Virus record (IMG/VR): IMGVR_UViG_3300036864_000384
Span: 1-39,447 of that record
Reading direction: 5' to 3' (one strand)
Length of the DNA stretch: 39,447 nt
Source: a virus
Of the stretch, positions 11,980 through 37,724 are shown one piece after another. The notes under the pieces were generated by a model that was not told where the DNA came from, ran no database searches, and saw nothing but the letters and a program-made list of their open reading frames with translations. A program made the position numbers and the translations under genes. Within the stretch, counting starts at the first letter, position 1. Every line of letters starts with the position of its first letter.

Positions 11980-12042
11980 CTGACGAGCCGTAAGATCGGC
12001 AGCGCGCCCGGCGTCTGCGGCTATCCCCCGGGGCGCCCAAGA

Positions 12043-12375: not shown

Positions 12376-12450
12376 CGCGGGATGGAGCAGGGGTAGCTCG
12401 TCGGGGTTACAGCCCGAAGGTCCCAGGTTCGAGTCCTGGTCCCGCTACCA
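12376..12450 (+). tRNA. Initiator-type tRNA with anticodon UAC (reads GUA start codons)
   Basis: 75 nt, encoded CCA (12448-12450). Acceptor strands CGCGGGA (12376-12382) and TCCCGCT (12440-12446) pair at six positions but leave C1 x U72 unpaired, the hallmark of bacterial initiators (C1 x A72 in E. coli). The D stem GAGC/GCTC gives A11:U24. The anticodon stem TCGGG (12401-12405) with CCCGA (12413-12417) gives the three G:C pairs used in P-site selection by IF3. The loop G-T-TAC-A-G (12406-12412) has U33, anticodon UAC at 12408-12410, and A37. The variable loop is AGGTC; the T arm is CCAGG/TTCGAGT/CCTGG. Stem and joint sequences are close to E. coli tRNAfMet as I remember it, so this is an initiator with a changed anticodon and not a valine elongator. 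Expected to be formylated; probably charged by ValRS (A35, C36) instead of MetRS. It precedes the late module, where 14 ORFs begin with GTA. Confidence 0.94.
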
Positions 12451-12661: not shown

Positions 12662-12800
12662 CCGGCCCGATGGTAGCGGGGGCGCACGTGTGTAGAAGCA
12701 GCATCCGATGTTGACGCCAACCCCGGGGAACCGGGCCATGTGAACCGTGTAACCGCGGCCGCGGACTTGATTTCTTCGCATGATTCAACGAGGACCGGTG
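12662..12800. promoter_or_regulatory. Intergenic region before terminase with a 12-bp perfect palindrome
   Basis: No gene is evident in these 139 bases. They contain a perfect 12-base palindrome CCGCGGCCGCGG (12753-12764). GAACCG-type repeats flank it (GGAACCGGGCCATG, GTGAACCGTGTAACCG). An AT-richer stretch ttgatttcttcgcatgatt (12768-12786) just upstream of the small terminase is a plausible late promoter or operator, though no clear -35/-10 pair can be assigned. The position between the tRNA and the packaging/structural genes makes this the likeliest place for late transcription to begin. Confidence 0.35.
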
Positions 12801-13199
12801 ATGGCTCATGGCGGGCATAGGACGGGGGCGGGGCGCCCGCCGGCACCAGGGGGGTTCCGGGCCTTCTGCCGGTCGATCGCCCTCGACGAAACGGCACAGC
12901 GCAAGGCCCTCGCGCGCGCGCGCAAGGACCCGAAGTTCTGGCTCGAATGCGCGGCGCACGGTTTCGGCCGACCGAGCCAAGCGATCGACATCAACCACCG
13001 CGGCCAGCTCGGCGCAGAAGGCCAGGAGGTCGTCTTCGTCGCGACGTTCACAGACGGCGTCCAGCTCATCGGCCCGGGTAGTACCGCCGGCAGTATCGCC
13101 CCTGCTCTCCCCGGTGAGTCTGCCCCCGCTGGTGGCGCGCCTGGTGCTGCCGGAGCTGTACCCGAAACAGCGACGCCTCCTGGAGGATCCGGCTCGTGA
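12801..13199 (+). CDS. Terminase small-subunit-like protein
   Basis: The 132-residue product begins MAHGGHRTGAGRPPAPGG, the basic GxRxGAGRPP opening common in small terminase subunits, then a helical section (IALDETAQRKALARARKDPK) and an Ala/Pro/Gly-rich tail. ATG 12801 is preceded by GAGG at 12790. An in-frame ATG at 12780 is possible. The last 86 bases overlap the large-subunit frame, and the tail is low-complexity there, so the true product may be functional only through about residue 95. Small subunits recognise the packaging site and load the large subunit. Assignment rests on the N terminus and position. Confidence 0.65.
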   Translation: MAHGGHRTGAGRPPAPGGFRAFCRSIALDETAQRKALARARKDPKFWLECAAHGFGRPSQAIDINHRGQLGAEGQEVVFVATFTDGVQLIGPGSTAGSIAPALPGESAPAGGAPGAAGAVPETATPPGGSGS

Positions 13200-15888: not shown

Positions 15889-16093
15889 CACGGTCTGGGT
15901 GCTCTGGCTACAGGTGGGCCACTGCAATCACCTCGTGGGCGTCTACGACAGCAAGGCGGGCGCACTTGCCAACGTGAGGTCCGAGGACCACTTTATCTGC
16001 ACGACCGCAATGAACGAGACCCTGGCGCTCGATCTGATCCCTTACGTTGAACCGCCGCGGTGCCGGGCCGGGCATGAGGAACTCAACATGTAA
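15863..16093 (+). CDS. Hypothetical protein (76 aa) upstream of portal
   Basis: I choose GTG 15863, placed after the purine-rich gggaaggggacg. The frame is open from 15812. The product is beta-rich at first (RNVTLPGDTVWVLWLQVGHC), then GVYDSKAGALANVRSEDHFI and a C-terminal CRAGHEELNM. No recognised family. Its last sense codon is ATG and its stop TAA (16091-16093) overlaps the portal's GTA start codon as GTAA, so translation of this gene could deliver ribosomes to the portal start. Confidence 0.6.
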   Translation: MRNVTLPGDTVWVLWLQVGHCNHLVGVYDSKAGALANVRSEDHFICTTAMNETLALDLIPYVEPPRCRAGHEELNM

Positions 16094-19000: not shown

Positions 19001-19533
19001 CAGCCTCCACCGAAGACTTCCACGGCGATGGAGCCGGAAGCGAGATCTACGTTGTAGGGTCCAACCGCCTTGCACGGGGTGAAGGGGGTCCTGCCCCGAT
19101 GCAGCATCTTTCCCAGCCGGATTTCGATCTCGGATCGATGGGCTCGGGTGCGTTCCTTTCCCAAGGCGCGCCGCGCAAGATCCTCAGCCGTTCGCTTTAT
19201 CCCTCGCAGGGCATCGTGCGCAGCGGCAGCACGCCGCGCGCGCTCCCGCGGCCCGATGCGAGCCTGATGGAGACGGAGGCTGTCCGCCTGTGTTCGCATC
19301 TTGAGCCCAGCAGTTCGAAAGGCACTGCGGACGGCGCCGCCCGAGACTCCGAGGTCGCGGCCGATGGCATCACTGGACTCTCCGGCCTGATAGCGCCGGT
19401 GAAGGTCACGAAGATCCGAAGGGAGAAGTTTTCCGGTCATGTCTACAACCTCGAGACCGAACAGGGGTGGTACGTGGCCGGAGGCATCGTAACACACAAC
19501 TGCGTGCGCGGGACGATCCCGCACGAGGAGTAA
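16090..19533 (+). CDS. Portal protein fused to a MuF-like head-morphogenesis domain, interrupted by an intein; GTA start
   Basis: 1147 residues before splicing, about 876 after. The portal domain occupies roughly residues 85-480 (SWLEEILVTDALTLYPLTDR; YGRSPTEMVLLTVNLALRSQ; IAWAFGVSPMPIAKVMNR). The C-terminal MuF-type domain has AETIARTETGLAYQEGALKV and, across the intein, the HPNC/VRG motif. A portal-MuF fusion is known in phages; the portal forms the DNA channel and the MuF part helps head assembly. Start: GTA 16090. An in-frame TGA at 16075-16077 leaves only GGA-ACT-CAA-CAT before it, and the next usual start is 93 codons later, inside the folded region. GAGG at 16077-16080 is the ribosome-binding site. 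The overlapping ATG-TAA at 16088 is out of frame. Confidence 0.92.
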   Translation, partial: VNRLPKGVVRATPVDPEALLVDSSGRPLRASALRQGERDYSPGKPLPATLAHGAAPRSTIPPTSANLSARPRSWAGKDLTAFDQLRALADTDLVRIAIQDVKGQIEGMGWDVAQVDGEEVTPELAKKIAAAKAWIRRPDPLAGRNFRACLSSWLEEILVTDALTLYPLTDRARRPLGLIQIDGATIYPVVDSLGRPPLPPEIAYQQIVHGQVETEFTLPELWYRPRHARPDCPYGRSPTEMVLLTVNLALRSQLYDLTYYTEGSIPEGIYAVPGYDNAELNDLQENWDAVLAGDDQARRRMRFAPEGQYQATKDRSWSYEFQEWLARVIAWAFGVSPMPIAKVMNRATAEQMESSALESGVRPVAEWVAEIFTDYLQGPLGLTDLKFVFGSDETEDGSLVYQRNVAYAGHAGLTLNEFFEQTGSKALEGEAGELRLIDTPTGPVFLQDLLAQREQSLKAGDAKVDSSLIQRAFLEVPVMTRDELRASIGLPPVGGAEGAEFITIAQVGPSVPAAPVAGDPGNASPADAAGETAGATVAADDEVPEPDPAEADLKRWQAFTLKRLKDGRPVRKFASQAIPSTLHRAVNSALERIPKDVSLEDASREVRAIFDCATLQRRMEKSPPASLVKPTRKIAKVIAAWLADQKDRVIAAALEELPDPSKAAGAPLRKKISDLELNAEDLVDDLSREIAKALTAGAGETASTSGFSLDTVPEAAVAYANERAAELVGMKWVDGELVTNPNPRFAITERLREDIQAKVTKAITEGWSPDELKADLAKMFSPARAETIARTETGLAYQEGALKVYEAGGQDFVDILDGAGCLPTGHDDDAPEADSSAKGVVQTESQADGQVWTLAQLREHRLGHPNCLPGSVEVVAPNRTAAFTRWFDGEVVVLHTAADDLLTCTPNHPVLSGRGWVAAKDLREGDYVIRSLDSERVARLVDPDYDEAPARIEKVAGSFLESLPVATHAVPASTEDFHGDGAGSEIYVVGSNRLARGEGGPAPMQHLSQPDFDLGSMGSGAFLSQGAPRKILSRSLYPSQGIVRSGSTPRALPRPDASLMETEAVRLCSHLEPSSSKGTADGAARDSEVAADGITGLSGLIAPVKVTKIRREKFSGHVYNLETEQGWYVAGGIVTHNCVRGTIPHEE
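18688..19500 (+). mobile_element. Intein (271 aa) inserted at the HPN/C site of the MuF domain
   Basis: The intein begins with Cys (CLPGSVEVVAPN) and has a block-B Thr-x-x-His in LLTCTPNHPVLSGRGWVAA. It ends with block F YNLETEQGWYVAGGIVTHN and its terminal Asn, followed by extein Cys+1 (TGC 19501). These are the N-terminal nucleophile, block-B His, and terminal His-Asn plus Cys+1 needed for splicing. The middle section contains the usual conserved AGSEIYVV and SNRL segments of Hint-domain inserts in phage head proteins, with no LAGLIDADG or HNH motif in this reading frame. The endonuclease is instead encoded on the other strand. Splicing would rejoin HPN to CVRGTIPHEE, the normal MuF C terminus. 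Confidence 0.92.
18700..19440 (-). CDS. Antisense homing-endonuclease-like gene (Vsr/EDxHD-type fold) inside the intein
   Basis: A 246-residue minus-strand ORF lies wholly within the intein. The start is ATG at 19440, eight bases after GAGG on that strand (the open frame extends to 19524 but lacks a better start). The N-terminal 55 residues contain a helix-turn-helix (SSDAIGRDLGVSGGAVRSAF). A Lys/Arg-rich linker follows, then a nuclease-like core: RLGKMLHRGRTPFTPC, YNVDLASGSIAVEVFGGGWH, RHRERFQERTRYLLDSGWSL, VIVWIDE. The order V-D ... V-E-V-F-G-G-x-W-H ... R-x-x-x-L-x-x-x-G-W is that of Vsr-like homing endonucleases as I remember them. Such conserved-looking protein motifs antisense to an equally well-formed intein would be unlikely by chance. 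It probably cuts intein-free portal genes to drive homing. Confidence 0.82.
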   Translation of the reverse strand: MTGKLLPSDLRDLHRRYQAGESSDAIGRDLGVSGGAVRSAFRTAGLKMRTQADSLRLHQARIGPRERARRAAAAHDALRGIKRTAEDLARRALGKERTRAHRSEIEIRLGKMLHRGRTPFTPCKAVGPYNVDLASGSIAVEVFGGGWHGVGRHRERFQERTRYLLDSGWSLVIVWIDEARYPLRIEAANYIVTLSKVLRRYPPPPAQYRVIRGTGEEIVRGCVKDDHFPVKPPRERRGAVRCNHFN

Positions 19534-20051: not shown

Positions 20052-21353
20052 GTAAAAGACCTCAAGATATTCGTCCCCCTCACGAAGATTGACGCCAAGC
20101 AGCAGATGGTCTACGGCGTGCTCGCCGAAGAGGCCGTCGACAAATCCGGCGAGATCTTCGACTACGAAACCAGCAAGCCCCTGTTCCAGGCGTGGTCATC
20201 CGACTTCGAGAAGCGCACGACCGAGGCGGGCCAGGAAGTCAGCAAGGGGAATCTCCGGGCGATGCACGAAGGCATCGCGGCCGGCAAGTTCACGCAGATG
20301 GTGTTCGACGACGCGGCGAAGAAGATCATCGTCGCCGCCCACGTCGTGGACAAAGCCGAGTGGGAGAAATGCGAGAAGGGCGTCTACACCGGCTTCTCGA
20401 TCGGCGGCAAGTACGAGAAGCAGTGGATGGACGAGCAGCTCAAGAAGGTCCGCTACACGGCGCGCCCGGCCGAAGGTTCGATCGTGGACAACGCCTGCAT
20501 GTATGGGGCGACGTTCAGCGCGATCAAGGCCGACGGGGCGGAGGAGCTTCGCAAGTTCGTCGGCGCCCCGGCCCAGAAGGACGCGGCCGCTCTCGCATCC
20601 ACGGCTGACTCGGTCCTCGAGGGGCTCAAGAACCTCCTGGTGCAGGCTTCGATGATGGAGGGGGATCCGTCCGCCTGGACGATCCACGACATCGCGGAAG
20701 CCATGTCGCGCGTGCTGTCGGTGAAGGGGGAGGCCCGCTACAAGATCGTGGTGGAGATGGACGACGTCGCCATGGGCGCGCCCGCGGGGGACCTCAAGAA
20801 GGTCGACGAGGCCAAGCCGACCGATCCCACAGCTCCAGCAGCTGATCCAGTTCCCGATCCGGCCAAACCGGCGGGGGAGAAGCCCTCGGGAGAGGCACCG
20901 GCAGCCGACCCAGTCGCTGTCGATCCGGCGAAGGCGGCAAGCGCCGACACCCTGTCCAAGCTCATCAACGAATCGTTCCAGAAGTCCCTCGAGTCTCTGA
21001 CTCAGACCCTCACCAAGCATCTCGACGACCAGGTCAAGGCGGTGAAAGACGGCATCCCGGAGACGGTCAGCACAACCGTGGGCGATGCCGTGAAGACCGC
21101 GATGACGCCGATCGAGAAGTCGATGGAGGAGGTCAAGAAGGATCTCGAGCTCGTGAAGGCAACGCCGGCGGCCGTAGGTCGTCCGGTGCACACAGCAGGA
21201 AAGACCATCGGCAGCGGGCCGGGTGGAGGCGGCGGATCCGCCCCCATGGAGGTGGTGCAGAAGTTCCTCGACGAGGCGCAACGCTCCGGCAAGGTCGATT
21301 CCCAGGCAATGAAGCAGCTGCGGCTCCAAGCGGCCACGGCGGCCATGCCCTAA
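20052..21353 (+). CDS. XkdF-like prohead protease with C-terminal scaffold-like region; GTA start
   Basis: 433 residues. The N-terminal 170 residues resemble XkdF-type serine proteases of phage heads: FVPLTKIDAKQQMVYGVLAE, candidate catalytic His in NLRAMHEG, and candidate Ser in GVYTGFSIGGKYE. After residue 250 comes a Pro/Ala/Asp-rich linker, then a coiled coil (TLSKLINESFQKSLESLTQT onward) of the kind found in scaffolds. Protease-scaffold fusions mature the capsid. Start: GTA 20052, six bases after AGGAG. The in-frame stop TAG (20040-20042) is three codons upstream and no conventional start lies between. The first usual start (ATG 20106) would delete the first beta strand. The overlapping ATG-TAA at 20050 is out of frame. 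Confidence 0.88.
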   Translation, partial: VKDLKIFVPLTKIDAKQQMVYGVLAEEAVDKSGEIFDYETSKPLFQAWSSDFEKRTTEAGQEVSKGNLRAMHEGIAAGKFTQMVFDDAAKKIIVAAHVVDKAEWEKCEKGVYTGFSIGGKYEKQWMDEQLKKVRYTARPAEGSIVDNACMYGATFSAIKADGAEELRKFVGAPAQKDAAALASTADSVLEGLKNLLVQASMMEGDPSAWTIHDIAEAMSRVLSVKGEARYKIVVEMDDVAMGAPAGDLKKVDEAKPTDPTAPAADPVPDPAKPAGEKPSGEAPAADPVAVDPAKAASADTLSKLINESFQKSLESLTQTLTKHLDDQVKAVKDGIPETVSTTVGDAVKTAMTPIEKSMEEVKKDLELVKATPAAVGRPVHTAGKTIGSGPGGGGGSAPMEVVQKFLDEAQRSGKVDSQAMKQLRLQAATAAMP

Positions 21354-21380: not shown

Positions 21381-22832
21381 GTAAACGGACTGCTTCAATC
21401 CATCAGCGAGGAATCTCTCGCAAAGGCGGCCGAGCTCTTCAAGGGCGCCTTCGACGTCAAGAAGACGGCCATCGATCTTTCCACCGGCCTGACCGGTGTG
21501 AACCTCGAAGCGCCGGCCAAGCTGCTCTACCCGCTCCTGTCTCCCTACCGACAGACCGTCGGCAGGAAGGTCATGGGCGGAAAGAACTCCGAGCACAAGC
21601 GAATCCTCACCGTGAAACCCTCCGGATCCCTGTTCGCCGCGGAAGGCGTGCGGGCAACCGGCTGGGCGATCACGAAGGATGCGCCCACGGTTTCGTTCAA
21701 GTCCATGGGCCAGCTCGGTGACTACACCTGGGAATCCGAGATCGCCGGCCGCAACTACGAAGACATCAAGCAGCGCACCAGGACGCTGAACCTTCTGTCG
21801 GCGATGCAGCTGGAGGAAGGCGCGATCTTCGGCGGAAACGTCACGGCCCTGGGCACTCCCACCGGACTGACCACGACTCCAGCCACCACGGGCGCCGCGG
21901 CGGTCGGGGGCGTGGGAATCGCGGCGGCGACCTACCAGGTCCGCGTGGCGGCACTCAGCCACGAGGGCATGAGGCAGGCCTCCAGAGTTGCCCGCGTGGA
22001 CAAGGCGGCGGCGCAGAACTTCGACGCTTCCCTCGTTGTTCCCACGCAGGGCGGCACCCTCGGCATCACCGCGGCTCAGGCCAACGTGGCGGCGGTGGTT
22101 GGCGGTTCGACCGATGGGATCATCGGTCTGACGTGGAACCCGATCGCCGGTGCGTTCGGCTTCGCGGTCTACGTGGACAACCACCTGCAGTGCATTTTGC
22201 CATCCACGACCAAGTGCACACTCACCGGCATCAACACCACCGGGGAGGCGGTACCGGGGGCGGACAGCTCCGCCAACGCGAACGCCTTCAACGGGATGGT
22301 CGCTCAGATCGTGGCGGCCGCAACCGGGTCCATGAAGAAGCGGGTCAACACGAATCTGGGCACGCCCTCGGGCAACCAGATCACCGTGATCGCCGATGCC
22401 ATCCAGGACGGCTACGACCAGTTCAAGGTCCAGCCGGATCGGTTGCTGGTGGCGTGGGACGTCCACGACCAGCTCGATCGCAAGCTGGCCTCGGTGGCCA
22501 ACGACCGGATCAACCTGAACTACATGGTCGGGCCGGAAGGTCCGAAGTTCGAGCAGCTCAGGTTCTACCCCTCGCCGATCGACGGACGACAGATCCCAAT
22601 CGAGCAGCAGCCCAACCTCTACGGAGGCCAGGTCCTGGGCGTGCTCGACGGTGTGCCGATCCCCGACAGCGAGATCCCGGCAGCATGGCAGATGCACATG
22701 GGCAGCGACTGGGTGCTGCTCGACTATGCGGTCGTCAACCCGAAGCAGGAGTTCGAGAGCAGGTCCTTCGGCGCTCTGGCGGGGTATGCCCCGGCGCTTC
22801 AGTTCATCCTGTACGACGTCCAGCGGGCGTAA
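21381..22832 (+). CDS. Major capsid protein (HK97-fold type) with an inserted Ig/FN3-like domain; GTA start
   Basis: 483 residues. An N-terminal arm precedes LLYPLLSPYRQTVGRKVMGG, then a core with FKSMGQLGDYTWESEIAGRN and EDIKQRTRTLNLLSAMQLEE. C-terminal capsid blocks include NQITVIADAIQDGYDQFKVQ and DWVLLDYAVVNPKQEFESRS. Residues about 150-280 form a Gly/Ala/Thr/Val-rich insertion with AAATYQVRVAALSHEG and WNPIAGAFGFAVYVD, as in fibronectin- or Ig-like surface domains. Start: GTA 21381, six bases after AGGAG. The frame is closed by TAA at 21351-21353 with no usual start between, and the next one (GTG 21498) would remove 39 residues. The most abundant virion protein thus appears to depend on GTA initiation. 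Confidence 0.88.
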   Translation, partial: VNGLLQSISEESLAKAAELFKGAFDVKKTAIDLSTGLTGVNLEAPAKLLYPLLSPYRQTVGRKVMGGKNSEHKRILTVKPSGSLFAAEGVRATGWAITKDAPTVSFKSMGQLGDYTWESEIAGRNYEDIKQRTRTLNLLSAMQLEEGAIFGGNVTALGTPTGLTTTPATTGAAAVGGVGIAAATYQVRVAALSHEGMRQASRVARVDKAAAQNFDASLVVPTQGGTLGITAAQANVAAVVGGSTDGIIGLTWNPIAGAFGFAVYVDNHLQCILPSTTKCTLTGINTTGEAVPGADSSANANAFNGMVAQIVAAATGSMKKRVNTNLGTPSGNQITVIADAIQDGYDQFKVQPDRLLVAWDVHDQLDRKLASVANDRINLNYMVGPEGPKFEQLRFYPSPIDGRQIPIEQQPNLYGGQVLGVLDGVPIPDSEIPAAWQMHMGSDWVLLDYAVVNPKQEFESRSFGALAGYAPALQFILYDVQRA

Positions 22833-23509: not shown

Positions 23510-24151
23510 GTAAACACGATCATCGACATCGGCCAGCTGAAGGCATCGGGCTTCCGCGGGTTTGACGGCCTGGCGGACGACGTTCTGCAGCGCAGCATCG
23601 AGGCGGCCACGGCCGAGATTGAAAAGAAGATCGGGCCGCGCAAGGTCGTGGAGGCCACCTACACCGAGTGGTACGACGGGCTGAGGGCCGCGGGCCGGAG
23701 CAAGGACGAGCTCTATCTCGAGAAGTACCCGGTGTCGGAAGTCACGCTGGTTCAGGAAGACGGCGTGACCCTGACCACGGGGACCGGTTACGACAGCGCG
23801 GGCACCATCCAGGTCCTAGTCGAGGCCGCGCGCGGGGTTCTGAGGCGCCGGCCCGGGGGGGCGGATATGTCACTCGCTGGGATGTCGGCCTGGCGCCGGT
23901 GGTCCGGCCGGTACCAGAACATCAAGGTCGTCTACAAGGCGGGATGGGCGTCCGGGTCGGTGCCGGCGGACCTCACCCAGGTCTGCATCGAGCTGGCCCT
24001 GATGCTCTACAAGCAGTCGAGCCGGTCGGGCTCCGGGAGCATGTCGATGTCCGGGGCGTCCGTGGAAGCGATCGAGGAGCTGTCCGAACGGGGGCAGCGG
24101 GTGATCCGAAGGTACGAGCCCAAGCTGCGGCCGCGGATGCGAGCTGCCTAA
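23510..24151 (+). CDS. Head-tail connector/adaptor-like protein; GTA start
   Basis: The 213-residue product opens NTIIDIGQLKASGFRGFDGL followed by LQRSIEAATAEIEKKIG, the helical opening of head-completion (gp6/gp15-like) adaptors. It continues with TEWYDG and NIKVVYKAGWASGSVPADLT, a family-typical 'Y-x-A-G-x(n)-P-x-D-L' segment, and helices to the end. It should sit beneath the portal. Start: GTA 23510, six bases after AAGGG. An in-frame TGA (23489-23491) is six codons upstream with no conventional start between, and the next start (GTG 23648) would lose 46 residues including the first helices. The overlapping ATG-TAA at 23508 is out of frame. Confidence 0.82.
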   Translation, partial: VNTIIDIGQLKASGFRGFDGLADDVLQRSIEAATAEIEKKIGPRKVVEATYTEWYDGLRAAGRSKDELYLEKYPVSEVTLVQEDGVTLTTGTGYDSAGTIQVLVEAARGVLRRRPGGADMSLAGMSAWRRWSGRYQNIKVVYKAGWASGSVPADLTQVCIELALMLYKQSSRSGSGSMSMSGASVEAIEELSERGQRVIRRYEPKLRPRMRAA

Positions 24152-24175: not shown

Positions 24176-24787
24176 GTAGGAAGGAACGGCGGGATCACCT
24201 TCGACGGCGACAACATGGATCGCTTCCTGGGAGATCTCTGGAGCAAGCTGCCCGGCACGATCTCCCGCGGCCTGCGCTCCGGCGTCAACCTGATGGTGCG
24301 GGAAGTCGTCACGACCAAGCTCACGGACGACAACCCGCCCTACCTCAACCGCCGCACCGGCAACTTCATCCGATCCGTTGGTGCCTCTCCATCCTTCAAG
24401 GTGGAGGGCAGCCTGGCGGGCGCCAGCGCCATCTTCAGCGGTCAGTTCGGCAGCAACCTCGATTACGCCAGAAAGCACGAGGAAGGCGGGACGTTCACCG
24501 AGCAGGTCCGGGCGCACACCCGCGTGAAGAACAGGAGTCGTGCCGCCGAGGTGCGCGCGAAGACTCGGCGCAAGAAGTTCCTGACCGCCTCGCAGCTCAA
24601 GGCGATCTCGCCCTACATCCACGTGCGCGCGCACACGCGCACCGTCACCTACCGCGCGCGCCACATGTTCGGCGACACGATGAAACAGAACCACTTCGGC
24701 GCCGCCCGCCGGATGCGCAGGGCGCTAGATCTGCTTCACAAGAACCGCCGGATCCCGACCCTGTCTGAAATCGCGGGAGGTGGATGA
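24176..24787 (+). CDS. HK97 gp10-like head-tail joining protein; GTA start
   Basis: The 203-residue product is basic. It has FLGDLWSKLPGTISRGLRSG near the N terminus, then PYLNRRTGNFIRSVGASPSF, LDYARKHEEGGTF and a C-terminal RRMRRALDLLHKNRRIPTLS. The 'R-T-G-x-L/F-x-x-S ... Y-A-x-x-x-E-x-G' pattern is that of gp10-like neck/tail-completion proteins. Start: GTA 24176, six bases after GAGGAG. The in-frame TAA (24149-24151) is eight codons upstream without any usual start. ATG 24215 is the first alternative and has no ribosome-binding site. Its stop overlaps the next gene. Confidence 0.82.
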   Translation, partial: VGRNGGITFDGDNMDRFLGDLWSKLPGTISRGLRSGVNLMVREVVTTKLTDDNPPYLNRRTGNFIRSVGASPSFKVEGSLAGASAIFSGQFGSNLDYARKHEEGGTFTEQVRAHTRVKNRSRAAEVRAKTRRKKFLTASQLKAISPYIHVRAHTRTVTYRARHMFGDTMKQNHFGAARRMRRALDLLHKNRRIPTLSEIAGGG

Positions 24788-25282: not shown

Positions 25283-25561
25283 GTAAACAGCAATCGTCTG
25301 CGGTTCGGCGGGCCCGAGCTTCCCGAGGGCACCCGCACCTACTACCAGGATCCTGAAGGCGGGATGCACTTCGCCCGCCCGGGCGACGAGGTCGACCCCG
25401 ACAAGGTCCACACCCCCCCAGCTTCCTACTTCATCGAGACGGGCCGTGCCTCCATGGTGACGGCTTCCGATCTCGACTCCAGCAGCAGCACAGAACCATT
25501 CAACCCAGAGCCGTCGGACAGCTCGTCTGAACCCGAGGCCGAACAGGAGGAACACGTGTAG
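25283..25561 (+). CDS. Hypothetical tail-region protein (92 aa); GTA start
   Basis: The sequence opens NSNRLRFGGPELPEGTRTYY, continues GMHFARPGDEVDPDKVHTPP, and ends in an acidic Ser/Glu-rich tail (SDSSSEPEAEQEEHV). The folded part resembles small proteins encoded just before tail tube genes. GTA 25283 lies seven bases after GGAGG in aaggagggagtctt. A TTG at 25259 is in frame but has no ribosome-binding site and lies inside the previous gene. The overlapping out-of-frame codons are TTG-TAA. Its stop TAG overlaps the next GTA leader as GTAG. Confidence 0.72.
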   Translation, partial: VNSNRLRFGGPELPEGTRTYYQDPEGGMHFARPGDEVDPDKVHTPPASYFIETGRASMVTASDLDSSSSTEPFNPEPSDSSSEPEAEQEEHV

Positions 25562-26880: not shown

Positions 26881-28791
26881 GTAGGCGGTTCGGATCTCAC
26901 GATTCGCTCGTTCATCGAGTACATCTTCAGGGGCAAGGGCGTCAAGGACGCTCAGGCCGGCCTGAAGGAAGTCGGCCACGCATCCGACGTCGCCGGCAAG
27001 AAGCTCTCCGCCATGGGCGGCGTCACCGAGAAACTCGGCGGGACGCTTACCCGCTACCTGGGCGCGGCCGCGCTCGGGGCTCTGGCCAAATCCTCCGTTG
27101 AAGAGTTCGCCAAGATCGAACGGGCCTTCAACGGCCTGCGCCTCCAACTGCAGGGCCTGGGGTATGACGCCGACCGAGAACTGCCGAAGGTCCAGGCATT
27201 CCTCGAGGGGATTCGCGCCGGCGGGGGCGGCCTCGTCTCTGAAACTCTCCCCGCGCTGCGCCAGCTGCTCGGTCTGACCGGAGACCTCGGCGCCGCCATG
27301 CGCGCCACCCGGCTCGTCTCCGACATGGCTGAAAGCGGGATGGGTGATTTCAGCCAGGCCCTCGATGCCGTTGCGAGCATCCTGTCGGGCCGCGTCTCGC
27401 GATCCATAAAGCAGTTCGGGATCAACGTCAGTGATGACGTGATCGAAAAGTCGGTGGATGCCTCCAAGTTCATGCAGATCCTGATCGACAAGTTCGATGG
27501 GTTCGGGGCGAAGATCGACGACACGCAGAACCAGCTCGACAAGCTGTCTGGTAGCTGGGAGCGCCTCAAGAACACGATTGGCGAGAGCGTCGCCAAGGTC
27601 GGACAGTTCGCGATGTACGTCCCGGCCGCTATCGCCGGCGTCGGCGCCGCCCTGGGTCATGCGTATACCAACTGGGCCGGCATCACGCGCGATGGCTGGA
27701 CTGGCATTGCAGACGAGTTCAAGAAGGGGATGGAGTCGATCCTGGGGACCACCCAGGAGACGTCCGAATCGACCTTCGACTTCCTCAAGGCGAGTGCCGA
27801 CCACGTGGCCGATCTCACGCTGCTCGAGGTCGCCGGACAGAAGGCGAAGGCGGATGCGGCGCAGGAGGCGGCCAAGGCCGAGAAGAAGGCCGCCGAGGAG
27901 AGAATCGCCGCGTTCATGCAGCTCGTCGCCAAGCGCACGGCCGCGGAAGTCGAGGCCCACGAGCGATCACTCGATCTGACGGAGGAGCAGCGCGAGGCGC
28001 TGAGAAAGGCCGACGAGGACTTCAGCGCCACGCAGCGTGAGAAGTACGAGCTGATTCAGAGAGAGATCGAAGCCGCGGCCGACGCCGAGCGCGCCAGGGT
28101 CGAAGCAGCGCTCCAGACCGACAAGCTCACACTTGAGAGTCGCCAGCTGCTCGAAGATGAATTGATCCGTCTGGACCAGCAGAAAGCCTTGCGTGCAGCC
28201 ACCCTCGCCGATGAGGTCGCCGCCATCAACACGCAGGCGGCCCATAAGGATCTCTTGCTGGCTCGGGCTTTGGCGAGACAAAAGATCGAAACCTACAAGA
28301 CGATCGCGCAGGCATCGGTCGACTTTTCGGTTGCCGTCTTCGGCCAGAACAAGATCGCAGCCATCGCGCAGGCGATTATTGACACAGTCTCCGCCGTGCA
28401 GTCTGCGCTGGCCGACCTGCCTTATCCATACAACATCGTCGTCGCCGCTATTGTCGCCGCCATCGGCGCCGCCAACGTGAACAAGATTCGGACCACGGAA
28501 ATGGAAAGCAGCGGGACGTTCGACACTCCAACCAACGATCAGATAGCCAGGGTCGGTACAAAGAAGTCCGCGGAGGACTTCGTCAGGCTCGCTCAGGAAG
28601 GAATTGGTCAGGGCCTCAGAGCGGCGTTTGCCCTTCCCGGCGGTCAGGGGGGCGGCGCCGCCGGGGAAGCAGGTGGCGTCACCTACCAGATCACCATCAA
28701 CGGGATGTACGGCGGCGATTCCGGCCTGAGAGATCTTCGCGACGTCCTCAATCGGGCGGAGCGCCTGCGTGCGCCCAGAAGGCTGAGGTGA
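26881..28791 (+). CDS. Tape measure protein; GTA start
   Basis: The 636-residue product opens SDLTIRSFIEYIFRGKGVKD and has a central helical domain (LPALRQLLGLTGDLGAAMRA), a hydrophobic stretch (YVPAAIAGVGAALGHAYTN), and long coiled coils (ERIAAFMQLVAKRTAAEVEA and on). The second hydrophobic region is NIVVAAIVAAIGAANVNKI, and the end is Gly-rich. This is a rather short tape measure, so a short tail is expected. Start: GTA 26881, one base after the chaperone's TGA and seven after GGAG. In-frame TGA 26848-26850 is ten codons upstream with no usual start between, and the next (27013) would delete 44 residues. The overlapping ATG-TAG at 26879 is out of frame. Confidence 0.87.
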   Translation, partial: VGGSDLTIRSFIEYIFRGKGVKDAQAGLKEVGHASDVAGKKLSAMGGVTEKLGGTLTRYLGAAALGALAKSSVEEFAKIERAFNGLRLQLQGLGYDADRELPKVQAFLEGIRAGGGGLVSETLPALRQLLGLTGDLGAAMRATRLVSDMAESGMGDFSQALDAVASILSGRVSRSIKQFGINVSDDVIEKSVDASKFMQILIDKFDGFGAKIDDTQNQLDKLSGSWERLKNTIGESVAKVGQFAMYVPAAIAGVGAALGHAYTNWAGITRDGWTGIADEFKKGMESILGTTQETSESTFDFLKASADHVADLTLLEVAGQKAKADAAQEAAKAEKKAAEERIAAFMQLVAKRTAAEVEAHERSLDLTEEQREALRKADEDFSATQREKYELIQREIEAAADAERARVEAALQTDKLTLESRQLLEDELIRLDQQKALRAATLADEVAAINTQAAHKDLLLARALARQKIETYKTIAQASVDFSVAVFGQNKIAAIAQAIIDTVSAVQSALADLPYPYNIVVAAIVAAIGAANVNKIRTTEMESSGTFDTPTNDQIARVGTKKSAEDFVRLAQEGIGQGLRAAFALPGGQGGGAAGEAGGVTYQITINGMYGGDSGLRDLRDVLNRAERLRAPRRLR

Positions 28792-28795
28792 CCAT

Positions 28796-31087
28796 GTAGA
28801 GTTCACCGCCTCCACGCGCCGGCGCTACATCGAGCGCCACCACTACCAGGACATCGTCGAGCCCGTCGGGCTGATGGAATACCGGGCGCTGCTTCTGGGC
28901 CCGGGCGGCATCGAGTTCGATGTCACCGATCGTCTTGGCGAAAAGGGCCTCGGGAAGATCAAGGGCGCCACGGAAGAAAACTTCCTCGAGCTGACCCACG
29001 GGGAAGTCTCCCTCGAGCTGGCAGACGAAGACGGGGCGGTCTCCCAGTTCTTCTCGGGGGTTTCCTCCTCGGACCTCTACGAGGTCATCCTCGAGCGCTT
29101 CACGGGGGCGCGCCGGAACCGCTGGGAGCGGATCTTTGGCGGCATCCTCGATCTGCCCTGGTCCATCCGCATCGACCACCGCGCGCGCTCAATCAATCTG
29201 CAGGCGTTCTCCTATTCCAAGCTCCTCGAACGGGCCTCGGCCGACACCATCAAGAGAAGCCTGGACGGCCTGACGGGTTCGGTGACCGCCACTTCCAAGG
29301 TCGTCACCATCTCCGACACCGCAAACATCTTCGCCGGCGACAGGATCCGCCTGCGCGACAACACCAACGACGAAGAGCAGACCGTCGCCAAGGTGCTCAC
29401 TGGTACGACCGTCCAGACCATCGACGCCTGGGACAACACCTTTGCCGCGCTGACCCCCCTGACGGTTGAGACCCCCTACTACCGCGACAAGGGCCTCCAG
29501 TTTCTCGCAGATGCCCTGTTTGCGGCCGCGGGAATCGCGAGCCGGGCGATCTCCATCCTCAATCCCCTGGCGCTGTTTCCGGTCGCCACCCCGATGAACA
29601 CCACGACCTACCCCAGAGACGTGGACACCGGGATCGTCGTGGATCCGCGCAGCTTCACCCAGCGTGGCGCCAACATCGACGTGCGGATGACCGACGACGG
29701 GCCCACCGACCGGCGCGCGGAGACCCCGGGCCCGGCCGAGGCGTGGACGTCTTTCACCACGGGCGCCCTTCGCACCATCAACGACTGGACGCCCTACCTC
29801 GACGCCGAGCCCGCGAACTTCCCGGACAACGGTTCCTTCCTGCTCGACGACGGGCTGCAGCACGCCTCGGACCACACCGCCAACCTCCTGTACGACCTGC
29901 GGGAGGGCGGGACCAAGTTCGACCTCTACAGCCTCGTGGTGGGCGGGGGAGGCATCGGGGGCTCGACGCTCCTGATCGAGGCTTTCAGCACGGTCACGGC
30001 CAATCAGTGCCATGCAGGGATCGACGTCGACCCGGTCACCGGCGACGTCTGGATGAGCTGCACCGGAAAGACCGGCGACGCCGGCGACAAGGACTCCGTG
30101 AAGGTCTGGGACGGGGCGGTGCTCACGTCGATCGAGACCGCGTTTTCCGGCCAGGTGCGCTACCTGCGCCGCCTGAAGCTGGTCGCCGTCCACGAGTACG
30201 ACCCGGGCGCATCCCATGGCAACAACCCGAAAGAGACCATGCGGCTCTACGACGCCGCCACCCGGACCCTGGTCAAGACGATCGCCGTCCCTCAGAACTT
30301 CTGGGCGTGGAGCCTGCGGGTCTGGGCGGTAGAAGAGGGGATCCGGATCGCGGGACTCTACACCCTGCTCGGAACCACGCGCCTGCGGATCTGGGATGCG
30401 AGCTGGGTCCAGGTCGCCGATTACCAGGTCGCAGACAAGGCTTCGGGAATCGCCGGCACCAAGGCGTTTCTTTCCGTGTTCACCGACTCGGGCGGCAAGG
30501 AGTTCCTGGTCGGGTGCGCCGGCGAGCAGTTCTTCGTGGTGGCCAAGGGCTACGCCGGGGTGATCCCGTATGCGGACTTTGCCGGGATGTCGTGTGCGGA
30601 GGGTCTCCGGGAGCTCGCCATCGCGAGCATTTCCTACATCGAGGTGGACCACTTCAAGGCCGGCACGATCCGCGGGAGGGCCAGCCGGGATGAGGAAGCC
30701 CGCTCCCAGGCAATCGCGATCGACGAGCCCCTCGAGCGGGTGAGTTGGCCGATCTCGGAGTTCTACAGGACCTCCGCCACCATCACCGGGAGCGATTCAG
30801 CCGGCGGCAAGATCGAAGAGACCGCGGGCGATTTGGGGGATTCGGCTCACAGGCTGGAGCTTGGCGGCGAGCTCATCCAGACGGGGGGCCTTGCGGAAGC
30901 CATCGCCCAGGAGTACGTGTCGGTGCTCTCCGTGCCGCGTCGGCAGGAAGAGCTTACCTTTGCCGAGACCGGCCGGCTCGTCGACGCCGGAGACTACCTG
31001 GATTTCGACGGCGCACTCTGGAAGGTCCTGGACGCAGACCTTGACACCCGGGCCCGGCGCATCACGGCGCGGGTCCTGGAGGACTGA
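28796..31087 (+). CDS. Tail tip/baseplate hub-like protein with propeller-like middle; GTA start
   Basis: 763 residues. The N-terminal region (RRYIERHHYQDIVEPVGLME; FLELTHGEVSLELADEDGAV; WERIFGGILDLPWSIRIDHR) and the C-terminal region (RRQEELTFAETGRLVDAGDY; VLDADLDTRARRITARVLED) resemble tail hub proteins. Between them, about residues 390-600, motifs recur at intervals (DSVKVWDGAVLTSI, MRLYDAATRTLVKTI, RLRIWDASWVQVADY) like blades of a beta propeller, which may bind a host surface. Start: GTA 28796, seven bases after GAGG. In-frame TGA 28784-28786 is three codons upstream (GGT-GAC-CAT), so no usual start exists before ATG 28874. The overlapping ATG-TAG at 28794 is out of frame. Confidence 0.8.
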   Translation, partial: VEFTASTRRRYIERHHYQDIVEPVGLMEYRALLLGPGGIEFDVTDRLGEKGLGKIKGATEENFLELTHGEVSLELADEDGAVSQFFSGVSSSDLYEVILERFTGARRNRWERIFGGILDLPWSIRIDHRARSINLQAFSYSKLLERASADTIKRSLDGLTGSVTATSKVVTISDTANIFAGDRIRLRDNTNDEEQTVAKVLTGTTVQTIDAWDNTFAALTPLTVETPYYRDKGLQFLADALFAAAGIASRAISILNPLALFPVATPMNTTTYPRDVDTGIVVDPRSFTQRGANIDVRMTDDGPTDRRAETPGPAEAWTSFTTGALRTINDWTPYLDAEPANFPDNGSFLLDDGLQHASDHTANLLYDLREGGTKFDLYSLVVGGGGIGGSTLLIEAFSTVTANQCHAGIDVDPVTGDVWMSCTGKTGDAGDKDSVKVWDGAVLTSIETAFSGQVRYLRRLKLVAVHEYDPGASHGNNPKETMRLYDAATRTLVKTIAVPQNFWAWSLRVWAVEEGIRIAGLYTLLGTTRLRIWDASWVQVADYQVADKASGIAGTKAFLSVFTDSGGKEFLVGCAGEQFFVVAKGYAGVIPYADFAGMSCAEGLRELAIASISYIEVDHFKAGTIRGRASRDEEARSQAIAIDEPLERVSWPISEFYRTSATITGSDSAGGKIEETAGDLGDSAHRLELGGELIQTGGLAEAIAQEYVSVLSVPRRQEELTFAETGRLVDAGDYLDFDGALWKVLDADLDTRARRITARVLED

Positions 31088-31093
31088 GGCTCT

Positions 31094-31558
31094 GTAGGCT
31101 ACCGCTGGCACCCGCTGGTCCGCATGACGCCGCAAGACGGCCCGGCCGAGGTCGTGGACCTCACCACGGTCTTTGTCTCTGGCGGCAGGACCTACAAGGT
31201 CCTCACCGACATCGACCTGGTCTACGAGCCCGAGACCGAGGCGCGCGACACCATCAACCGCCGGTCCCGGCCCCTGCTGCTGGGGTATCGCCCGGTGATC
31301 ACCATGGTCTTCCAGCTCAACATCATGAGCTTCTACGCCCAGATCGCACAGCTCGCCTCCCGGCTGATGGATCCGTACTGGGTCGTCGAGCTCGCGCTGG
31401 ACAACGGCGCCACCTACCGCCAGATTGTGCTCAGGCGCGCGCCGTCGCCTGAACCCTTCGGAAACAAGACCGTCGCCGGCGCCAGCTTCAAGATGACCGT
31501 GGCCTGCCGGGACCTCATCGCCGAGCTTTCGCCCATCGCCACGGGCACGGCCTGGTAG
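31094..31558 (+). CDS. Tail protein (154 aa); GTA start with the clearest isolation
   Basis: The product opens GYRWHPLVRMTPQDGPAEVV and contains VFVSGGRTYKVLTDIDLVYE, VITMVFQLNIMSFYAQIAQL and ASFKMTVACRDLIAELSP. It is probably a small tail tip component. The previous gene's TGA (31085-31087) is in the same frame, and only GGC and TCT separate it from GTA 31094. No ATG, GTG or TTG lies near in any frame; the overlapping NTG is CTG. GGAGG (31078-31082) is 11 bases upstream, with a closer GAGG at 31086-31089. ATG 31124 lacks a ribosome-binding site. GTA is therefore almost forced as the start. Confidence 0.82.
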   Translation, partial: VGYRWHPLVRMTPQDGPAEVVDLTTVFVSGGRTYKVLTDIDLVYEPETEARDTINRRSRPLLLGYRPVITMVFQLNIMSFYAQIAQLASRLMDPYWVVELALDNGATYRQIVLRRAPSPEPFGNKTVAGASFKMTVACRDLIAELSPIATGTAW

Positions 31559-31568
31559 GAGACTGCAT

Positions 31569-34500
31569 GTAGACCGAACCGCCCTGCGCACCGCCCGACG
31601 CTTCGAATGGTTCTTCCGCTTGCTCGCCACGGCCGGCCTGGTGCTGGCCTTCTCCATCCTCACGCTGCACGCGGCCGTCAAGACCACGACCATCCAGGGC
31701 AGGGTCGTCGCCGTGACCGGCTCGCCACTTTCCGGCTACATCACGGCTGCGCTTTCGACCTCCGGATCAGCGATGGACGGCACGACCTCGGTGCGTGTCG
31801 TCGGGTACTACCGCGGCACCATCGACCCCAACGGCATGGTCACCGGGCTTGCCCTCGTGCCCAACGACGCCATCACCCCAGGCGGGACCTACTACGTCGT
31901 GAGCATCGTCTGGAAAGACGCGGCCGGCAGGGGCGGCAACGCGAACGAGCTATGGTCGGTCGCGAGCGACCCGAACGTGATCGACATCGGGCTCATCGCC
32001 CGGCTCAAGGTGGCCCCGGGCCTGGACGTGCCGAAGATGAGAAACAGCACCGGCACCTGCCCGCCGCCTGGCTCGTTCTGCGACGACGCCTCAGACGTCG
32101 GGGTCCAGTGGCTCTGCACCGACCTGGCCGCGGCCTACTACTGTCAGAGCGCAGGCGTGGTGGCTCAGGTCTCGGGATCCGGATCGGGCTACAACCGCGC
32201 CCAGGAGGAAGGCTCGAACCTGACGCCCAGAACGACCGTCAACTTCGTCGGCGTTCCCCTCACCGTGACCGACAATCCATCCGCGCAACGGACCGATGTC
32301 ACGCTCAGTGTGACGCCGTCGAGTTCCCCGAGCTGCGTCGGCAGCAATAGGATCATCACCACGAACCAGGGCATGACAGGAGGAGGGACCCTCGCCAGCG
32401 ACCTCACCCTGGGGTTCCGCCTCCACACCAGCGAGACAGGGGGAACGCCGGCGATCGCCTCGGAGAGCGGGCTCCAGATGATGGGTTCACTGATAGGCGG
32501 CGGTGTCGGTATCACGCTCCTGGCCGGATGCAGCGATGGCCAGATCCTCAAGTGGGACATCGGTGAGGCGACGTGGAACTGCGCAGACGATGGCGGGGTC
32601 GGCGGTGGAGGAGGAAACAGCTTCACCACCATCAACGCGCCCAGTGGGACGGACCCGGTGGCAAGCGGCGCGACAGACACCTTGGGCCTATCAGCGGTCG
32701 CACCCGTCACCATCACCGGGGACGCCCTCTCCGACACCCTCACATTTCAGGTGACGCAGGCCAGCGCATCGGCTCCCGGCGTCGTGCAGCTCTCCTCCGA
32801 TCTCGCGGGGGCCGGATCCGGTCCAACGTCCCCGCAGGTCGCAGACGACAGTCACAACCACACCACGACGACGGTCTCCGCCCTGGACGCCTCCAACGAC
32901 TTCACCGCGGGCCTCATGCCACTACTCTACGGCGGAACCGGCTCCAACCTCTCAGGAACCGGCGGAACCGGGCAGTTCCTGAAACAGAGCTCCGCCGGCG
33001 CCGGCGTGACCGTTTCGGTGATCGGGGTCGGGGATCTTCCAGCCCATGCGCACACGGCCTCCGACATCACCAGCGGCTCTATGGATATCGCGCGCGGGGG
33101 GACGACGGAGACGGTCAGCACGGAGGACGCTGTCCTTGTCGGTTCCGGATCGGCCGACTGGCAGCCGAAGGTGATCCCCGACTGCGACATCGCGTCGGGC
33201 AACAACAACCCGGCGGTCAACTACGACCAGGTGACGAACACCTTCACCTGCAGGCAGATCAACCTCGACCCCGACCACACCGTCATCGACCCGGCGATCC
33301 ACACCGATGTCGAAGCGACCGGGAGCCTCGCCACGGGTGACCTGTTCTGGCGCAAGTCCAGCGGCAAGTGGAGCAACCTTGCGCGCGGGACCAACGGACA
33401 GTGCCTCACCTCAACGGCGACCGATCTTGCGTGGGGGAGCTGCGCGGGCGGTGGAGGCGGATACGCCACGATCCAGGAGGAGGGGAGCCCCGTCACCGTC
33501 CGAACGGTATTCAACTTGATCGGCGCTGCTCTCACGGCGGCAGACAACGCCGGCGCATCAAGAACGGATGTCACCCTTTCGCAGAGCCCGGCCTCCGCGT
33601 CTGTCGTGGGGACGGGTCGCCTCGTTTCTGTTTCAGGAACTGGCCTCTCCGGCGGCGGGGACCTCTCGGCCGACCTGACTATCACCCTCTCCGCGAACGT
33701 CATGCTGGACAACGAGGCGTCGACGGTGGCCTCGGCCGGGACGCAGGTCATCAACGACCCCGTGAACATTCTGCCTGACGCGACCAACGGCGTGACGGTG
33801 GACGCCGCCGGTCTGCTCACGAAGGCCGGCACCGGCAGTGTCCAGGCCGACGCAGTCGTATGCTCCGGCTCCTGCATCTCAGACGCCGAGGTAGACGACG
33901 GGATCACGATCAGCAATATGACGCAGATCGGGACCCGCCCATTCACCTCCCTGACGGCGAGCTGCACCGATGCGCAGGTCGTAGGGGGCAACGCCGGCGC
34001 GACGGCCCTCGAATGCCAGGCTGATGACGACGTCCCAGACGCCGGCGACTTCGGAGCGCTGGCCCTTTCCGGGGACGTTGCCAGCACGGGGCTCAGCACG
34101 ACGATCGGCGCGGACAAGATCCTCGAATCCATGCTGAAAGTGGTCGATTCTCCGGCCGACGAGGAGTGCCTGACCTACGAGGCTACGGGTGGCGACTTCC
34201 AATGGGAGACGTGTGGAGCTGGCGGCTCCGGCGACATCACCGACGTCTTCAACTGCGCGTCCGGGGATTGCGCGTCCGTTGCACTCGCCGACGGGGATCT
34301 GCTCGACGGGTCCGGTGTCAACAACAGCGCGACGACCGAGGGGATCAAGCTCCCCCAAGCGGCCGATGTCTCGACGGGAACCGCGGAGGGGCAGATCGGG
34401 TGGGACACAGACGACGACACGCCATTCATCGGAGATGGATCGGGAGTCAAGCCGATCACTGGTCGCGACTGGAGTTACTTCCGACAGGTCGGCACGTCGC

Positions 34501-35027
34501 CTGTAGAGAGGCTGTGGTCACCCAACGTTTCCGGGGCCGCGTCGCTCAGCCAGTCGACGTTCACCACCGGCGTCTACCGCGCCACCCCATTCCTGACGGG
34601 AAGAGGGGGAACCATCGATCGAGTGGGGGTCAGAGTTACGACCGGGGCGGCCTCGACGAACTTTCGGATCTGCCTCTACGATTCGACGTCGGACACGAAC
34701 CTCTACCCCAACAATCTGATCCTGGACGTGGGCTCGCTTTCGTCCGTCTCCACCGGATGGATCAATGCGACAGTCAGCCAGGCGCTCAAGCCCGGCAAGC
34801 TCTACTGGTTCGCGTTTGAAAACGACTCCGCCTCCCCGCAGTTTCGATCCATTTCAGGCGTCGGGTCGGTGCCGATCCTTGGGTACGACAATCCGCCGAC
34901 GACCGACGCGGGGACAGGATGGACGGTGGCGCACACGTTCGGGGCGTGCCCCTCGACATTCCCAGCCAGCGGCACTGTGATTTCTGGCGCCGTGTCGCCG
35001 GTCGTCAACGTGAGGTACTCGAATTGA
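31569..35027 (+). CDS. Tail fibre protein with N-terminal hydrophobic segment; GTA start
   Basis: 1152 residues. A basic N terminus (DRTALRTARRFEWFF) is followed by a membrane-like helix (LLATAGLVLAFSILTLHAAV), unusual for a fibre. A beta domain follows, then long Gly/Ser/Thr/Asp-rich repeats: a unit with QEEGSNLTPRTTVNFVG...TGGGTLASDLTL recurs later as QEEGSPVTVRTVFNLIG...SGGGDLSADLTI. The C-terminal 160 residues are a probable receptor-binding domain (VSQALKPGKLYWFAFENDSA; GWTVAHTFGACPSTFPASG). Start: GTA 31569, seven bases after AGGAG. The overlapping ATG-TAG at 31567 is out of frame. The first usual in-frame start, TTG 31620, would cut into the hydrophobic helix. Confidence 0.84.
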   Translation, partial: VDRTALRTARRFEWFFRLLATAGLVLAFSILTLHAAVKTTTIQGRVVAVTGSPLSGYITAALSTSGSAMDGTTSVRVVGYYRGTIDPNGMVTGLALVPNDAITPGGTYYVVSIVWKDAAGRGGNANELWSVASDPNVIDIGLIARLKVAPGLDVPKMRNSTGTCPPPGSFCDDASDVGVQWLCTDLAAAYYCQSAGVVAQVSGSGSGYNRAQEEGSNLTPRTTVNFVGVPLTVTDNPSAQRTDVTLSVTPSSSPSCVGSNRIITTNQGMTGGGTLASDLTLGFRLHTSETGGTPAIASESGLQMMGSLIGGGVGITLLAGCSDGQILKWDIGEATWNCADDGGVGGGGGNSFTTINAPSGTDPVASGATDTLGLSAVAPVTITGDALSDTLTFQVTQASASAPGVVQLSSDLAGAGSGPTSPQVADDSHNHTTTTVSALDASNDFTAGLMPLLYGGTGSNLSGTGGTGQFLKQSSAGAGVTVSVIGVGDLPAHAHTASDITSGSMDIARGGTTETVSTEDAVLVGSGSADWQPKVIPDCDIASGNNNPAVNYDQVTNTFTCRQINLDPDHTVIDPAIHTDVEATGSLATGDLFWRKSSGKWSNLARGTNGQCLTSTATDLAWGSCAGGGGGYATIQEEGSPVTVRTVFNLIGAALTAADNAGASRTDVTLSQSPASASVVGTGRLVSVSGTGLSGGGDLSADLTITLSANVMLDNEASTVASAGTQVINDPVNILPDATNGVTVDAAGLLTKAGTGSVQADAVVCSGSCISDAEVDDGITISNMTQIGTRPFTSLTASCTDAQVVGGNAGATALECQADDDVPDAGDFGALALSGDVASTGLSTTIGADKILESMLKVVDSPADEECLTYEATGGDFQWETCGAGGSGDITDVFNCASGDCASVALADGDLLDGSGVNNSATTEGIKLPQAADVSTGTAEGQIGWDTDDDTPFIGDGSGVKPITGRDWSYFRQVGTSPVERLWSPNVSGAASLSQSTFTTGVYRATPFLTGRGGTIDRVGVRVTTGAASTNFRICLYDSTSDTNLYPNNLILDVGSLSSVSTGWINATVSQALKPGKLYWFAFENDSASPQFRSISGVGSVPILGYDNPPTTDAGTGWTVAHTFGACPSTFPASGTVISGAVSPVVNVRYSN

Positions 35028-36658: not shown

Positions 36659-37032
36659 TGGCCTTCAAGAACGTCCGCGCCCTGGACGACTGGCATGAGG
36701 CCGGCGCGATGATGCGAGAGGTCGTGCTCTTCATGTGGGAGGAGGCGTGGCCGACAGACCGAGACCTGATCGTCACCAGGATCGCCGAGCGCACGCCGGA
36801 GCAGAAGACCGAGGTCCACACGGACGGCCCGCCGCACCGGGCGATCGACTTTCGGATCTGGCACGCGCCGCTCCAGACGGTTCAGAGGGTGGCGGACAAG
36901 GTGAACGCGAAGTTCATCTACGACCCGCAGCGGCCGGCGATGATGGTGGCCATCGTCCATGACGCCGGCTCTGGTAACCACCTTCATATCCAGACACATA
37001 CGAACACGGTCCTGCGGGAGGCGGTCGCGTAA
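36658..37032 (+). CDS. M15/hedgehog-type peptidase-like endolysin candidate (124 aa)
   Basis: It starts at ATG 36658 overlapping the previous TAA, behind GGAGGAG. The second half carries VHTDGPPHRAIDFRIW and IVHDAGSGNHLHIQTH. 'H-x-x-G-x-x-x-R-A-x-D-x-R' followed about 50 residues later by 'H-L-H-I-Q' is the zinc-ligand and catalytic pattern of small M15-like phage peptidases (His, Asp, final His). It is likely a cell-wall peptidase for lysis, although the 124-residue size leaves no wall-binding domain. Its stop TAA overlaps the GTA start of the next gene (GTAA). Confidence 0.68.
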   Translation: MAFKNVRALDDWHEAGAMMREVVLFMWEEAWPTDRDLIVTRIAERTPEQKTEVHTDGPPHRAIDFRIWHAPLQTVQRVADKVNAKFIYDPQRPAMMVAIVHDAGSGNHLHIQTHTNTVLREAVA

Positions 37033-37307
37033 TCGAGTCCGTCCTGCGAGCCCTGGCCGGGCAGGTCCCGCTGCTCCTCGTGGTGGGTGTGGGACTGGGC
37101 TGGGGTCTGCGCGAGCTGCGGGGAATGCATCGCGAGATCAAGGCTCTCTCCAGCATCGCGGGGGAGGCCAGAGACGCCGCGCGCGAGCTAAAGATCCGCA
37201 TCGAGGAGAAGGTTGCCACGGCCGAGCGCGAGCACGATGATTTCAGAGACAGGATTCACGCTCTGGAGACGCGCGGCCGCGTCCGGCGGAGCCGTCAGGG
37301 AAGCTGA
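37029..37307 (+). CDS. Membrane-anchored coiled-coil protein of the lysis cassette (92 aa); GTA start
   Basis: GTA 37029 overlaps the previous gene's TAA (GTAA), seven bases after GGAGG. The product opens IESVLRALAGQVPLLLVVGV and GLGWGLRELRG, one membrane helix, then a charged helix (LSSIAGEARDAARELKIRIE; KVATAEREHDDFRDRIHALE) and a basic end. One membrane anchor plus a coiled coil before a holin candidate suggests a lysis accessory or spanin-like role. It is the only GTA start in the set preceded by C and not T. The next in-frame usual start (GTG 37080) would remove half the membrane helix. Confidence 0.7.
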   Translation, partial: VIESVLRALAGQVPLLLVVGVGLGWGLRELRGMHREIKALSSIAGEARDAARELKIRIEEKVATAEREHDDFRDRIHALETRGRVRRSRQGS

Positions 37308-37319
37308 GAGGAGAAACGT

Positions 37320-37724
37320 GTAGACAATCTGCAACAGGTAGTGTCGGCCATCATAGGCGATGTCCTTCAGGCGCCCGTCTTCATCGTACTTTCCAGGTTC
37401 GCCGGCGTGGCCGCGCTGACCTGGTTGCTCACCGAGACCCTGCCCGAGGTCTTCAAGAAGCTCAACCGATTCACCAAGCCGGCGCTGGGGGCAATCCTGG
37501 GGCCGCTGCTGTCGGTCATCTTCTACGCCCTGGGCTTCGTGAGGATCGACTTCGTCCTGGCCGGCGTGCTGGGCGATGCCCCTCAGTATGTTCAGGCGCC
37601 CGTGCGCGTCGTAGGCGTCGCCCTGATGGGCTTCATCGCCACCCTGTGCGCCCGGGGGTTCCACGACTGGAAGGTAGGCTCGAGGACCTCGCCGCCCGCT
37701 GCGCCAGGGGGAGGGTCCTCGTGA
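37320..37724 (+). CDS. Holin-like membrane protein (134 aa); GTA start
   Basis: The product opens DNLQQVVSAIIGDVLQAPVF. It has three hydrophobic segments, roughly residues 17-34 (PVFIVLSRFAGVAALTWL), 50-70 (LGAILGPLLSVIFYALGF) and 92-110 (VRVVGVALMGFIATLCARG), with a short polar tail. Size, topology and neighbours (endolysin candidate upstream, membrane coiled-coil proteins on both sides) fit a holin. Start: GTA 37320, six bases after AGGAG. In-frame TGA 37305-37307 is four codons upstream with no usual start between; GTG 37341 has no ribosome-binding site. The overlapping frame reads GTG-TAG. If this is the holin, lysis timing also depends on the GTA-reading tRNA. Confidence 0.75.
   Translation, partial: VDNLQQVVSAIIGDVLQAPVFIVLSRFAGVAALTWLLTETLPEVFKKLNRFTKPALGAILGPLLSVIFYALGFVRIDFVLAGVLGDAPQYVQAPVRVVGVALMGFIATLCARGFHDWKVGSRTSPPAAPGGGSS

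Follow-up and report, generated by a model that had tools for sequence, protein, structure and literature searches.

What a start codon means in bacteria is thought to be set by a single initiator tRNA that carries the anticodon CAU, and the ATT start of infC is a rare, near-cognate natural start. Lak and crAss-like phages reassign a stop codon through a suppressor tRNA of their own. The phage described here likewise encodes a tRNA predicted to alter the reading of part of its genes; in contrast to the Lak and crAss-like phages, however, an initiation codon would be added and no stop codon changes its meaning. Streptomyces sigR, with a GTC start (PMC5472188), and infC also use a non-NTG start in a natural gene, however these are single genes served by ordinary fMet-tRNA with no dedicated tRNA, unlike the phage genes. 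Among the closest known systems are laboratory constructs, in which an initiator body carries a non-CAU anticodon matching a non-NTG start (E. coli G34C36 for GUC and U35A36 for UAG, and GUA/UAC in vitro; PMC2268962, PMC13232202, PMC8576571). An engineered initiator tRNA with a GAC anticodon is charged with valine, formylated and initiates at GUC (PMC2268962), and initiation in vitro has been obtained with engineered GUA/UAC pairs (PMC13232202). The phage pair differs from these in being natural; a dozen genes of the phage, together with a conserved start context, also match it.

The window, which is the whole stretch of DNA analysed, is a 39.4-kb phage record (39,447 nucleotides) with one tRNA gene, called as tRNA-Val(UAC) (Table 1). 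The body of this tRNA is that of an initiator: C1 and U72 form no Watson-Crick pair, three consecutive G:C pairs are present at the base of the anticodon stem (UCGGG/CCCGA), and the D stem contains A11:U24 (GAGC/GCUC); the first two of these features are named as initiator identity elements (PMC8576571, PMC2268962). All three features are held in common with bacterial and phage tRNA-fMet(CAU), to which the phage tRNA is 77–81% identical, compared to 58% for E. coli valT; identity as an elongator tRNA-Val(UAC) was rejected on these figures and on the unpaired 1:72 end. Among phage records the best full-length relatives are tRNA-Met wherever annotated or scanned. The phage tRNA departs from tRNA-fMet(CAU) in its G/G at 32/38, its short D loop, U72 in place of A72 and its UAC anticodon, and with UAC rather than the CAU of methionine identity it is not a tRNA-fMet despite the initiator body. 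The anticodon loop is G32-U33-U34-A35-C36-A37-G38; UAC reads GUA, and twelve genes of the same genome appear to start with GTA. It is considered very probable, from the sequence, that a portion of the late genes uses GUA as a dedicated start codon by virtue of the phage initiator tRNA, probably read as formyl-valine.

A promoter scan near the tRNA gene found none. The region from the early genes to TerL also contains an IS110-family transposase gene (10889-11680), which the tRNA follows at a distance of approximately 700 bases. In the interval from the tRNA to TerL, a 42-codon ORF at 12692-12820 has a TGTAG start context and no clear Shine-Dalgarno (SD) sequence; it is possibly a further small GTA-started gene.

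The gene at 31094 illustrates the layout common to the twelve late genes, a set which includes most of the identified structural genes. Positions 31085-31099 contain TGA-GGC-TCT-GTA, with the TGA (31085-31087) and the GTA (31094-31096) in one frame; the original prediction of this arrangement, with no in-frame NTG nearby, is borne out by the sequence. From the GTA the ORF continues for 153 more codons to the TAG at 31556-31558. The SD motif GGAGG lies at 31078-31082 with a pairing energy of −9.3 kcal/mol, while the first in-frame NTG, ATG 31124, is 30 nt downstream and has −2.7 kcal/mol, against a mean of −3.4 kcal/mol at random positions. All nine codons from the GTA to this ATG end in G or C, and the segment scores as coding relative to out-of-frame segments (P 0.006). 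Initiation at this GTA is thus supported by SD placement and coding potential, as it is at eleven other genes, with further support from two aligned homologues of other genes and from the UAC initiator tRNA, which the first reading of the sequence had not noticed. The protein has no family and no homologue in profile and homology searches, including the IMG/VR scan, and its single-sequence structure prediction was uninformative (pLDDT 34); its description as a tail gene fits its position, however no family or homologue backs it. Downstream, TTG 35024 is the probable start of 35024-36658 and has GAGG as its SD; at its N terminus the product (IRRPAVPALALVVLLL) resembles a signal peptide or membrane helix.

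Table 1. Late genes with a predicted GTA start in the window, and UAC initiator-like tRNA genes in the window and in other records
Feature	Record	Coordinates	Strand	Details
Initiator-like tRNA, UAC anticodon	Window	12376..12450	+	C1xU72, encoded CCA
Portal/head fusion gene	Window	16090..19533	+	GTA start (ATGTAA)
Head maturation protease gene	Window	20052..21353	+	GTA start (ATGTAA); aligned with annotated ATG of Polewnik homologue
Capsid-like protein (phrog_13692)	Window	21381..22832	+	GTA start (ATGTAA)
Head-tail adaptor	Window	23510..24151	+	GTA start (ATGTAA)
Late gene, function unassigned	Window	24176..24787	+	GTA start (ATGTAG)
Late gene, function unassigned	Window	25283..25561	+	GTA start (TTGTAA); SD GGAGGG
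Tape measure protein	Window	26881..28791	+	GTA start (ATGTAG)
763-aa gene, tail region by position	Window	28796..31087	+	GTA start (ATGTAG)
154-aa gene under study	Window	31094..31558	+	GTA start in CTGTAGG; SD GGAGG; no family match
1152-aa gene, tail region by position	Window	31569..35027	+	GTA start (ATGTAG)
Possible Rz-like spanin	Window	37029..37307	+	GTA start (CGTAA), without T at −1
134-aa gene	Window	37320..37724	+	GTA start (GTGTAG); lowest coding score of the twelve
UAC initiator-like tRNA	L072, IMG/VR	3797-3871	-	C1:G72 pair
UAC initiator-like tRNA	L073, IMG/VR	2588-2660	-	Loop GUUACAG as in window
UAC initiator-like tRNA	L074, IMG/VR	2706-2778	+	
UAC initiator-like tRNA	L075, IMG/VR	11929-12002	+	Loop GUUACAG as in window
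UAC initiator-like tRNA	L004, Saccharibacteria MAG	43-117	+	
UAC initiator-like tRNA	L007, Bacteroidales MAG	4841-4915	+	Shifted D arm

GTA is rare inside the coding regions of the genome (0.26% of codons), however it accumulates ahead of the first NTG of the late ORFs: 13 occurrences were observed within 25 codons where 1.37 were expected (P 3e-9), and 10 within 12 codons where 0.84 were expected (P 2e-8); these P-values are descriptive, as the ORF set and both windows were picked after the pattern was known. No other codon is strongly over-represented in this position (the next has P 0.013), and early and middle ORFs show no GTA enrichment before the first NTG (one occurrence). The GTA at 31094 and the excess of GTA in late ORFs are more than chance. 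SD energy alone separates codons poorly in this GC-rich genome, therefore coding potential, context and homology were used as well; the stretch from GTA to first NTG is coding in all twelve genes, with P below 1e-3 for most and 0.049 for the weakest, 37320. A start of these genes at the NTG further downstream, with the GTAs present by chance, has next to no likelihood: an in-frame NTG does follow every GTA, as at 31124, however these NTGs are without SD pairing (on average it is weaker than at random sites), the segments preceding them are coding, the GTA excess is as given above, and homologues of the genes at 20052 and 16090 reach upstream of the NTG.

Translated from GTA 20052, the protease (VKDLKIFVPLTKID) and its homologue from Brevundimonas phage Polewnik, taken from the annotated start (MSKARLFLPIRKVD), give a gap-free alignment with 48% identity over the matched part; beginning the window protease at its first NTG would remove 18 residues. 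The portal protein from 16090 aligns from residue 30 with Sonali and from residue 40 with Strzyga, while its first NTG is residue 94, so homology begins 54–64 residues ahead of that NTG. PHROG profile matches for 21381 and 23510 also begin ahead of the first NTG. The genes at 20052 and 16090 are stronger proofs than 31094 because both have homologues; it had been claimed that 31094 is the cleanest single case and argues for GTA initiation by itself, which is too strong for a gene with no detectable homologue and a TGA that could be read through in frame. Read-through of TGA 31085 would join the 763-aa and 154-aa genes, which share one frame and are separated by two codons between TGA and GTA, into one protein. 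This is extremely unlikely, as GTA genes follow TGA, TAG and TAA stops and several are in a different frame from the preceding gene; the codons between stop and GTA are mostly non-coding by score, an SD sequence is present at the junction, and in the homologues the protease and the portal are encoded separately, each from a start of its own.

The context of the GTA starts is distinct from that of the NTG starts. T occupies position −1 in 11 of the 12 GTA starts and in none of 19 NTG starts (Fisher P 1.4e-7), and A or G follows the GTA in every case (R at +4). Counted in the sequence, the consensus U-GUA-R is complementary to A37, C36, A35, U34 and U33 of the phage tRNA; extended codon–anticodon pairing at initiation has been proposed earlier (Esposito et al. 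2003, as cited in PMC9841429). A at −2 is also enriched (8/12 GTA starts against 3/19 NTG starts, P 0.007), and an out-of-frame ATG followed directly by TAA or TAG overlaps the GTA at 16090, 20052, 21381, 23510, 24176, 26881, 28796 and 31569. This ATG-TAR overlap is possibly a start-stop decoy for host fMet-tRNA. The same eight sites, together with the A at −2, are what would be expected if fMet-tRNA started at the overlapping NTG, stopped immediately, and the ribosome then re-started or slipped into the GTA frame; this is nevertheless very improbable, since the overlapping NTG is CTG, TTG and GTG at 31094, 25283 and 37320 and is absent at 37029, re-initiation would find no in-frame start codon besides GTA, and the UAC initiator tRNA would be left unexplained. 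At 31094 the overlapping codon is CTG 31092-31094 with TAG directly after it, and a start there would stop at once; the earlier argument that a frameshift from an overlapping ATG is ruled out at this gene holds.

It is also conceivable, if very improbable, that the GTA starts are read weakly by host fMet-tRNA as near-cognate codons, for example under relaxed IF3, and that the phage tRNA serves a different function, for example making good the loss of a tRNA to host defence. Near-cognate starts are known, as in the GTC of sigR (PMC5472188), and phage tRNAs can evade tRNA-targeting defences (PMC10264068). Plain fMet-tRNA is however expected to use GUA poorly: for E. coli recJ, a GUA start mutation is reported to be subject to IF3-mediated suppression (Haggerty and Lovett 1997, as cited in PMC2268962). 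With IF3 opposing such starts, expression of a dozen late genes would be poor. Coincidence would furthermore have to account for the exact match of the anticodon and for the complementarity at U(−1) and R(+4).

UAC initiator-like tRNAs in other phages that are without general GTA starts also favor a separate role, and a UAC tRNA need not imply GTA starts because such phages exist. Six other UAC initiator-like tRNAs were found (Table 1), and by eye the 1:72 pair is absent in five of these, the exception being that of L072; a pattern for initiator tRNAs with an anticodon beginning with A, G or T returned no others in viral contigs. GTA-start enrichment is absent from the three IMG/VR records with such tRNAs that were read whole and from one 4-kb record, and the UAC tRNAs of L072-L075 may serve another use. 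In the genomes of L004 and L007, SD-TGTAR is no more frequent than in a backwards control, and there are no convincing GTA starts near the tRNA; each genome also contains, at another place, a tRNA-Met(CAT) similar to tRNA-fMet. IMG/VR scans with TerL, a TerL alignment, the tape measure, the capsid-like protein and the product of 31094 returned no close relative of the window; such scans may leave out records very near it. The best relative is a single TerL at 43%, in a record that has no UAC tRNA, uses ATG starts and contains no other clearly related late gene; no UAC tRNA of the initiator type was present at the loci from the TerL alignment. To date, the window is the sole genome with both a UAC initiator-like tRNA and GTA starts.

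In the favored reading, with the phage tRNA as the dedicated initiator for GUA, host ValRS would charge the tRNA with valine through A35, C36 and A73, its unpaired 1:72 end would allow formylation, and the three anticodon-stem G:C pairs would direct it to the P site of the 30S subunit, for pairing with GUA starts downstream of an SD sequence, with U33-U34-A35-C36-A37 able to pair with the start consensus. At 31094, the GTA in CTGTAG would open translation, with formyl-Val as the probable first residue; eleven more late genes would begin likewise, and NTG starts serve the early genes and roughly half of the late ones. For a subset of its late genes, the phage would thereby likely gain a second initiation channel, under its own control and independent of host fMet-tRNA. 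A more far-reaching version is put forward tentatively, as a possibility leaning slightly to the doubtful side: a natural orthogonal channel in which, owing to tRNA(UAC), about a dozen late genes start exclusively at GUA in UGUAR and so await the phage tRNA for their translation, with the ATG-TAR decoy blocking leaky initiation by host fMet-tRNA and the channel working even when fMet-tRNA is depleted or destroyed.

The literature searched, mostly without subscription papers, contained no natural UAC initiator tRNA and no phage with GTA starts, only the engineered systems; conditional on that coverage, a natural pair of initiator tRNA(UAC) and GTA start would be categorically new. If true, it would be a natural counterpart of laboratory orthogonal initiation, in which a virus shifts about half of its late genes to a codon matching its own tRNA, and gene callers would mis-start or miss such genes. 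It would also mean that phages can reassign start codons as well as stop codons, and it makes testable the use of initiation codons by phages for the timing of late expression or for escape from attack on tRNA-fMet.
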